In this document: one piece after another, positions 20,884 through 23,555 of the stretch | Layout: each line of letters opens with the position of its first letter | Position numbering within the stretch: position 1 is the first letter of the stretch | Assembly: GCA_024637215.1 (NCBI GenBank) | Contig: JAGXFM010000041.1 | Location: 1-46,636, forward strand | Reading direction: 5' to 3' | Length of the DNA: 46,636 nucleotides | Source: Sulfuricurvum sp. | GTDB taxonomy: Bacteria > Campylobacterota > Campylobacteria > Campylobacterales > Sulfurimonadaceae | Position numbers and translations under genes: made by a program | The notes under the pieces: model-generated | Seen by the model: the letters and a program-made list of their open reading frames with translations, nothing else | The model's database searches: none | Told to the model about the DNA's origin: nothing

Positions 20884-21507
20884 ATGGCAATTACGGTTCG
20901 TAAAGCATCCGAGGCAGATATTGACATGATTGCCCAAGCATTATTGGAGAGTTCCCGCGGAGGCAAAAGGATCGGGTTGTTTGATTTGGTATTCAATACC
21001 TCCGAAGATAAAACACTACTTTCCCATCTCAATCGTCTCGCCCTCACTTCCACCAAAAGTTATTGCCACTTTTCAAACTTTTTTGTTGCCGTCTCTGATG
21101 GGACTCCCCTCGGAACCATTTGCGGATACGAGCCTCGTATCGCAACGCATGAAATCTTTTCTAAAGCACTCGAAGAGATCGGATTTGATGAAACCTACCA
21201 CGAACGGATTGCCGCCTACTTGCTCTGTGAAGGTGAAGCCGATAATAAAACATTCGTATTGGATTTTATGCTTGTCAAACCCGAATACAAAAGCATTGAT
21301 GTTTACAAAGAACTTATCGGGAAAAGTATGCTTACCGCACGCCTCAAAGGATACCGAAAAGTTCAAACCTCCGTCGAAATAGGTGCGGTAGAGAATGAAA
21401 TTATTTATAAGAAACTTGGATTTGAAGTCATTGACGAAAAACGGAGCGAATATTACAAAGAGCAGTTTGACCGTCCCGGAATTATGCGCCTGCAAATGAT
21501 ATTGTAA
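20884..21507 (+). CDS. GNAT family N-acetyltransferase
   Basis: MAITVRKASEADIDMIAQAL... with C-terminal NEIIYKKLGFEVIDEKRSEYY. Confidence 0.82.
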   Translation: MAITVRKASEADIDMIAQALLESSRGGKRIGLFDLVFNTSEDKTLLSHLNRLALTSTKSYCHFSNFFVAVSDGTPLGTICGYEPRIATHEIFSKALEEIGFDETYHERIAAYLLCEGEADNKTFVLDFMLVKPEYKSIDVYKELIGKSMLTARLKGYRKVQTSVEIGAVENEIIYKKLGFEVIDEKRSEYYKEQFDRPGIMRLQMIL

Positions 21508-21516
21508 GGACTCACT

Positions 21517-22890
21517 ATAGAATACGGAATTTTAGGGTTACTCCCGCCGCTCATCGCTATTTTCCTCGCTTTTTTCAGCCGTTCTGTTTTTATTGCACTC
21601 GCGATGGCAGTTCTCGTCGGTGAATTTATCATTGCCGATTTTCATCCCCTTAATGCACTTATCCTTACGCTAGAGCGTTTTGAATCACTGCTCAGCGAAG
21701 CGTGGGTGCTCAAAACTCTTGCTTTTGCGATCATGGTGGGTTCGGTTATGACCCTCATTGAGCGTAGCGGTGGAGTCAACAGCTTGGTTCATGAACTGAG
21801 TATTAAACGCTCCATCGTTAAAACCAAACGGGGGGCATTGATACCCAGCTTTATCGCCGGAATCATCGTTTTTATCGAATCCTCTATCACCTCGCTCGTT
21901 GCGGGAGCCATCGGACGCCCTTTTTGTGATCGTTACGGAATCAGTCGCGCTAAACTCGCTTTTGTCTGCGATTCGACCTCAGCTCCCGTATGTTCGCTCA
22001 TTCCGCTAAACGGTTGGGGAGCGCTCTTGTTAGGGCTTATCGGGGGACAAATCACCGCAGGTCTTATTGCGGGGGAAAGTGCCACATGGTTAGTTCAATC
22101 AATCGCCTTTAATTTTTATGCCATGATGGCCCTTGTCGTCACCTTTATCGCTGTATGGTATGAGATCGATATCGGTCCGATGCGCCATGCCACCCTTGGT
22201 GCACCTGAAATCGAATATGACGATGCAAAAGGGGATATCGGGCTTTTTCTATGGCCGATGGTCTGGATGATCGGTGGGGTAATTCTCCTCATGTTTGTCA
22301 CGGGAAATGGAGATATTTTTAAAGGATCAGGTTCTACCTCAATCTTTTATACCCTTCTTATTACGTTAGTGATGATGTGGGGGTATTACCGACTCAAAAA
22401 TGTTCTCACATCCAAAGAGTTTTTCAGTGCGGCTCTTAATGGAGCACGTTCTATGACTCCAATCGCCTTGATTTTGTTATTCGCTTTCGCTATCGGTGGA
22501 GTGAGTTCGGATATGGAGGTGGGGCAATACCTCGCCTCGTTTATCGGAGATTATCTCCCCTCGGCATACCTTGCGGGAGCTATTTTTATATTAGCGGCCA
22601 TTATCGCGTTTGCGACAGGAACCAGTTGGGGAACATTCAGTATTATGATCCCTATTGCCGTTCCGTTAGCCGTAGGGCTTGATGCACCGGTTGCATTGGC
22701 GATGGGAGCGGTCATTTCAGGTGGCGTTTTCGGCGATCACTGCTCCCCTATTTCAGACACAACGATTATATCTGCGATGGCTTCAGGATGCGAAGTAGGT
22801 GAACATACCCGTACCCAGCTCCCGTATGCTCTCATCTCGGCAGGAATCGCCCTCACTTTATTTATCCTATTCGGAATCGCCCTCACATGA
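21517..22890 (+). CDS. nhaC: NhaC family Na+/H+ antiporter (apparent ATA start)
   Basis: Conserved N-terminus EYGILGLLPPLIAIFLAFFSRS is in frame upstream of the first ATG; only ATA at 21517 (after SD TAAGGA) or ATT codons are available. Internal CDSTSAPVCSLIPLNGWG and FGDHCSPISDTTIISAMASGCE. Confidence 0.8.
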   Translation: MEYGILGLLPPLIAIFLAFFSRSVFIALAMAVLVGEFIIADFHPLNALILTLERFESLLSEAWVLKTLAFAIMVGSVMTLIERSGGVNSLVHELSIKRSIVKTKRGALIPSFIAGIIVFIESSITSLVAGAIGRPFCDRYGISRAKLAFVCDSTSAPVCSLIPLNGWGALLLGLIGGQITAGLIAGESATWLVQSIAFNFYAMMALVVTFIAVWYEIDIGPMRHATLGAPEIEYDDAKGDIGLFLWPMVWMIGGVILLMFVTGNGDIFKGSGSTSIFYTLLITLVMMWGYYRLKNVLTSKEFFSAALNGARSMTPIALILLFAFAIGGVSSDMEVGQYLASFIGDYLPSAYLAGAIFILAAIIAFATGTSWGTFSIMIPIAVPLAVGLDAPVALAMGAVISGGVFGDHCSPISDTTIISAMASGCEVGEHTRTQLPYALISAGIALTLFILFGIALT

Positions 22891-23555
22891 GTAAAGCCAA
22901 ACTTCTCTTCCTCGAAGATGATCCGAATCTCTCGGAGAGTGTCAGTGAATATCTTGAAGAGCAAGGGTATAACGTCACCTGTGCTTATGATGCAACCTCA
23001 GCTGAAGACCTCCTCTATGAGCAAAAGTTTGATGTGTTACTGCTCGATGTCAATGTTCCCGCAGGGGATGGCTTCTCTTTGCTCAAAGCAAGTCGTAAAG
23101 CGGGAAATTCAACCCCTGCCATTTTTATCACTTCGCGCAATGCTATGCGCGATATCGAAAAGGGTTTCGAGAGCGGCGGAGATGATTATATTCGCAAACC
23201 CTTTGCCCTCAAAGAACTTTTATTGCGAATTCAAACCATTCTAAAACGAAATTTTTACCATAACCCCACCGATGTACTGACACTCAGCGAGGGGATAAGC
23301 TACGACATCGAAAACCAAATGCTCATCATCAACGGTGAAATACAAACCCTTCAACTCAAAGAGCATAAACTTCTCAAGCTCTTTATACAGCATAAAAATG
23401 AGCTTCTCTCCCATGAAATGATTATGGAGTATCTGTGGGATTATGACGAAACTCCGAGTGACGGCTCATTGCGTACCTACATTAAAACACTTCGTAAACT
23501 CCTCGGAAAGGACTCCATTGTTAGCCACAAGCGCCTCGGGTATCAATTTCGCTAA
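22887..23555 (+). CDS. OmpR/PhoB family response regulator
   Basis: Receiver domain LLFLEDDPNLSESV...VLLLDVNVPAGDG...FITSR, C-terminal winged helix ending SLRTYIKTLRKLLGKDSIVSHKRLGYQF. Confidence 0.93.
   Translation: MSKAKLLFLEDDPNLSESVSEYLEEQGYNVTCAYDATSAEDLLYEQKFDVLLLDVNVPAGDGFSLLKASRKAGNSTPAIFITSRNAMRDIEKGFESGGDDYIRKPFALKELLLRIQTILKRNFYHNPTDVLTLSEGISYDIENQMLIINGEIQTLQLKEHKLLKLFIQHKNELLSHEMIMEYLWDYDETPSDGSLRTYIKTLRKLLGKDSIVSHKRLGYQFR

Follow-up and report, generated by a model that had tools for sequence, protein, structure and literature searches.

Near-cognate start codons are an established and rare kind of bacterial start site. In a reconstruction of 61,358 ancestral AUG starts, a single switch from AUG to AUU and two from AUG to CUG were recovered (PMC5622118). 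The Staphylococcus aureus genes ccpN and infC start with AUA and cvfC1 with AUU, and reporters carrying AUA or AUU gave approximately 10% of the output obtained with AUG, although in rich medium one of the genes reached as much as 30% (PMC13009471). The AUU starts of Escherichia coli infC and pcnB are cited in the same paper as limiting expression. The pncA gene (bbe22) of Borrelia burgdorferi also has an AUU start (PMC13398362).

Here we describe near-cognate starts in Sulfuricurvum, taking as reference a window of 46,636 nucleotides, the whole stretch of DNA analyzed, from a MAG (G000) with a completeness of approximately 84%. The nearest named loci belong to Sulfuricurvum. Between positions 20884 and 24735, genes for a GNAT-like acetyltransferase, a transporter, a response regulator and a histidine kinase follow one another head to tail, their ends abutting or overlapping, in an operon-like arrangement (Table 1), and the GNAT-transporter pair is conserved across most of the family. 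From 21508 onward, the transporter frame has no stop until the one at 22888–22890. The sequence bears out the original prediction that no ATG, GTG or TTG lies in frame between the GNAT stop and the ATG at 21604, that an ATA at 21517 is placed 6 nt past an AAGGA, and that a start at the ATG would drop 29 codons. The codons immediately following the ATA are GAA TAC GGA ATT TTA GGG.

Table 1. Features of the transporter locus in the window, and positions of the small-protein gene in the genome of the window (G000) and in a complete Sulfuricurvum chromosome (G003)
Feature	Position	Strand	Remarks
GNAT-like acetyltransferase gene	20884..21507	+	ORF upstream of the transporter gene; stop TAA at 21505–21507
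Shine–Dalgarno sequence AAGGA	21506..21510	+	Overlaps the GNAT stop; 6 nt (CTCACT) before the ATA
Near-cognate start codon ATA, transporter gene	21517..21519	+	Placed by the orthologue codon and the onset of the coding signature
Na+/H+ antiporter-family transporter	21517..22890	+	457 codons plus stop; PF03553
ATG, first in-frame canonical codon	21604..21606	+	Internal; position without conservation in orthologues
Response regulator gene	22887..23555	+	ORF; PF00072 and PF00486; ATG overlaps the transporter stop (ATGA)
Small protein, approximately 113 residues	G000:C47:43678–44030; G003:C2:883052–883401 (minus strand)		ATC/ATT start after AAGGA

The transporter scored 160.2 bits against the PF03553 profile, above the Pfam gathering cutoff of 23, and fell below the cutoffs of the NCBI NhaC equivalog model TIGR00931 (55.6 bits, cutoff 370) and of a Tet(35)-type model (151.5, cutoff 750). 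Because the equivalog cutoff was failed, NhaC and nhaC are used here as family-level labels only. The stretch preceding the ATG at 21604 had been described as a normal NhaC N-terminus; it is real coding sequence and aligns end to end with orthologues, but the name holds only at the level of the family. The GNAT-like product matched Acetyltransf_7 weakly, with a score of 20.2 bits that does not reach the Pfam cutoff of 27.

The transporter protein was matched in 34 of 41 Sulfuricurvum genomes. Each of the 30 Sulfuricurvum loci examined, including the window, contained either ATC (20 loci) or ATA (10 loci) at the codon corresponding to this ATA. Among 84 distinct Campylobacterota orthologues, which are related by descent and so do not form independent samples, 74 had a near-cognate codon at this position (ATA in 49, ATC in 25), and the remaining ten had a canonical one (ATG in six, GTG and TTG in two each). 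Most Sulfurimonas orthologues had ATA, and relatives from other phyla mostly had an ATG start at the same place or a few codons away. On a tree of 89 rows, including five outgroup rows from other phyla that all have ATG, the canonical codons were confined to a few separate lineages, indicating that the weak codon is not indispensable, and approximately ten interchanges between ATA and ATC were required. ATT was found in none of the 84 orthologues, though it accounts for 40% of the Ile codons in G003, and none of the 30 Sulfuricurvum loci had changed from ATA to ATG, although a single transition would suffice. Such swapping of codons at a retained start suggests that a weak start is selected for. 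AAGGA preceded the start codon with a spacing of 5–6 nt in 28 of the 30 Sulfuricurvum orthologues, and the Shine–Dalgarno (SD) sequence was often weaker in Sulfurimonas. Some transporter loci (e.g. L009 and L048) contained an extra in-frame TTG, GTG or ATG farther upstream, at places that were not conserved. The alignment thus upholds the genuine AUA start that had been predicted: the orthologues share this starting point, and every Sulfuricurvum locus examined has ATA or ATC there.

The complete 2.36-Mb chromosome of G003, the sole genome scanned, was searched for genes with a coding signal well upstream of the first canonical codon. The top five hits obtained without an SD requirement were ftsK, an ORF without a clear SD, a 122-codon ORF, trkH and nhaC. 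AAGGA lies 6 nt before the ATT of ftsK, the ATC of the 122-codon ORF, the ATT of trkH and the ATA of nhaC, and an SD-filtered scan, in which the filter by itself favors sites with SDs, set these four apart from the other 15 matches. A candidate at C2:1101678–1102332 of G003 has no clear SD. At C2:1375292–1376450 (minus strand) of the same genome, a fifth candidate has an ATC after AAGGA and then 35 codons free of canonical starts; its strict pattern was matched in G003 only.

At least three more Sulfuricurvum genes, ftsK, trkH and the gene for a small protein, share the near-cognate start arrangement, with AAGGA 6–7 nt upstream of the near-cognate codon in nearly all cases. The ftsK product, a DNA translocase, contains FtsK domains according to a profile search, and its start codon is ATT at 29 of 30 loci and ATA at one (L250–L279). 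A pattern search recovered ATT or ATA starts for ftsK in 38 Sulfuricurvum genomes, and ATT, ATC or ATA starts in the genera g4, g11, g14 and g15, while a control pattern with canonical codons gave no match within Sulfuricurvum and recovered ATG versions in genus g5. The ftsK codons after the start (ATTTTACGYGAY) are almost invariant in Sulfuricurvum, even at synonymous sites.

The start codon of trkH, a potassium-uptake gene (PF02386), varied more widely across 30 Sulfuricurvum loci (L280–L309), with ATA in 14, ACG in 12, CTG in three, ATT in one and a canonical codon in none. The occurrence of ACG (Thr) and CTG (Leu) beside ATA indicates that this position is not merely a conserved Ile. Eleven of the ACG or CTG loci contain an ATG at codon 10; there, codons 1–9 differ by 0.15, 0.00 and 0.34 at the three codon positions (compared with 0.63–0.70 upstream) and evolve as coding sequence, so this ATG is not the start. 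An in-frame TTG, GTG or ATG is present farther upstream at some trkH loci (L285, L294), and its place is not conserved.

The small protein had no Pfam match in a profile search. In nine pattern-matching genomes, ATC or ATT follows AAGGA and coincides in each with the residue at which the protein match begins; its start codon was read in these genomes only, and canonical starts are possible elsewhere. The genome of the window carries all four genes in this form, with ATA for nhaC, ATT for ftsK (L255), ATA for trkH (L295) and ATC for the small protein.

G003 contains two ordinary initiator tRNA genes (CAU anticodon, GGG/CCC stem) and a normal anti-SD sequence, which makes special decoding unnecessary; neither a special initiator tRNA nor an altered anti-SD was seen in this genome. 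Its infC region (C2:97725) reads GAGGT-N6-TTG-ATT, and infC in G003 probably starts at the TTG. An autoregulatory loop like that of infC was considered for the transporter and set aside, as no direct link was found and the G003 infC start is probably TTG.

We consider it very likely that the transporter is initiated at the near-cognate AUA by ordinary fMet-tRNA, anchored by the SD sequence, and that this start is kept by selection for low transporter synthesis. The well-spaced AAGGA would set fMet-tRNA (CAU) on the AUA at 21517, and the first residue would be Met. With the GNAT stop close upstream, terminating ribosomes may assist, and a contribution of reinitiation is likely for nhaC. Selection would retain the near-cognate codon and, in most lineages, avoid AUG, GUG and UUG, most likely with the aim of low synthesis of a polytopic membrane transporter, whose expression the weak start is expected to limit by analogy with the reporter results for other genes (PMC13009471). 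The same device would operate in Sulfuricurvum at least for ftsK (AUU), trkH (AUA, ACG, CUG or AUU) and the small protein (AUC or AUU). Three of the four products with near-cognate starts are multi-helix membrane proteins, and scarcity of these proteins would be a reasonable purpose of the weak starts. IF3 or growth state may control these starts. A broader proposal is tentative: Sulfuricurvum and its relatives may maintain a small set of weak-start genes (the antiporter, trkH, ftsK and the small protein), each with its near-cognate codon (AUA, AUC, AUU, ACG or CUG) adjusted separately, so that initiation fidelity, through IF3 level or growth state, sets several membrane proteins jointly.

Alternatively, the weak codon could be neutral: with translation coupled to the GNAT stop, the identity of the start codon would matter little, and AUA or AUC would have drifted in. 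Reinitiation is thought to tolerate poor start codons, which counts in favor of this account, as does the placement of the preceding same-strand ORF (approximately 200–290 codons), which in most orthologues ends mostly 8–12 nt before the start. We nevertheless regard it as unlikely, given the repeated interchange of ATA and ATC with no drift to ATT or, in Sulfuricurvum, to ATG. Furthermore, the near-cognate starts of ftsK and trkH in G003 lie behind TATAAT-like hexamers located approximately 34 nt upstream, as read from the sequence, and not behind an abutting gene, suggesting that coupling is not a general requirement.

It is highly improbable that translation starts at an internal canonical codon, the ATG at 21604 in the window, with the 29 codons upstream acting as a leader. 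That ATG is present, and many orthologues contain some ATG, GTG or TTG within the first 60 codons, but the first canonical codon occurs anywhere from codon 4 to codon 77, and a Met at the site of this ATG is missing from many orthologues. Orthologues beginning at this position were looked for, and they do not begin there; relatives from other phyla have their ATG at or near the place of the ATA. Protein-type conservation extends back to the ATA or ATC and takes in the first membrane segment. Pairwise differences within Sulfuricurvum at codon positions 1, 2 and 3 are 0.20, 0.05 and 0.54 after the ATA or ATC, compared with 0.40, 0.22 and 0.40 upstream, and the third-position excess characteristic of coding sequence sets in at this codon. 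Little is conserved upstream of it in Sulfuricurvum except the SD sequence.

Readthrough of the GNAT stop, giving a GNAT-transporter fusion with no separate start, has still less to recommend it. The two genes share a frame in the window and at 47 loci, but the GNAT stop lies out of frame at 29 loci, with 13 and 16 in the other two frames, and at L025 and L031 a TAG immediately 5' of the ATC gives two in-frame stops. The SD sequence between the two genes is also retained within Sulfuricurvum. Because the GNAT stop occurs in all three frames and a TAG precedes some ATC codons, readthrough is not a conserved mechanism at this locus. A sequencing or assembly error concealing a true ATG, which had been raised as a possibility and would need only a single-base change in a MAG of this completeness, has a negligible chance of being correct and is refuted by the orthologue codons, because an error cannot recur over dozens of separate assemblies, several of them nearly complete (G001, G003), and alternate between ATA and ATC at 30 of 30 Sulfuricurvum and most Sulfurimonas loci.

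The family-wide AUA/AUC start of the transporter, the presence of several such genes per genome, and the swapping of start codons, including ACG and CUG, are provisionally new. No earlier report on these genes was found in the literature searched, which covered few subscription journals and preprints, and the novelty is provisional for this reason. Near-cognate starts that persist through most of a bacterial family, at several genes per genome, contrast with the rarity of reconstructed switches away from AUG. Gene finders that accept only ATG, GTG and TTG must truncate such genes, and the N-termini of FtsK, TrkH and the transporter are therefore probably mis-annotated in the genomes studied here. 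The pattern provides a natural test of the reasons why bacteria retain weak start codons.

Like infC, pcnB and ccpN, the transporter gene has a start codon one base removed from AUG, conserved in relatives and preceded by a well-placed SD sequence. The near-cognate starts of ccpN, infC and cvfC1 in S. aureus are likewise conserved, with a strong SD and reduced initiation in reporters. S. aureus differs in phylum, in the genes concerned and in its extended SD, whereas the Sulfuricurvum SD is a plain AAGGA; unlike the S. aureus cases, the Sulfuricurvum codons swap among AUA, AUC, AUU, ACG and CUG, and the reporter measurements are those from S. aureus. E. coli infC and pcnB share a near-cognate start with the Sulfuricurvum transporter, but E. 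coli infC is autoregulated by IF3, and no such loop is evident for the transporter. Borrelia pncA offers a further likeness, as a non-canonical start missed by annotation that left a truncated protein in the databases. It concerns one gene in one species and rests on experiment, whereas the Sulfuricurvum starts are family-wide, involve several genes and are supported by comparative evidence.
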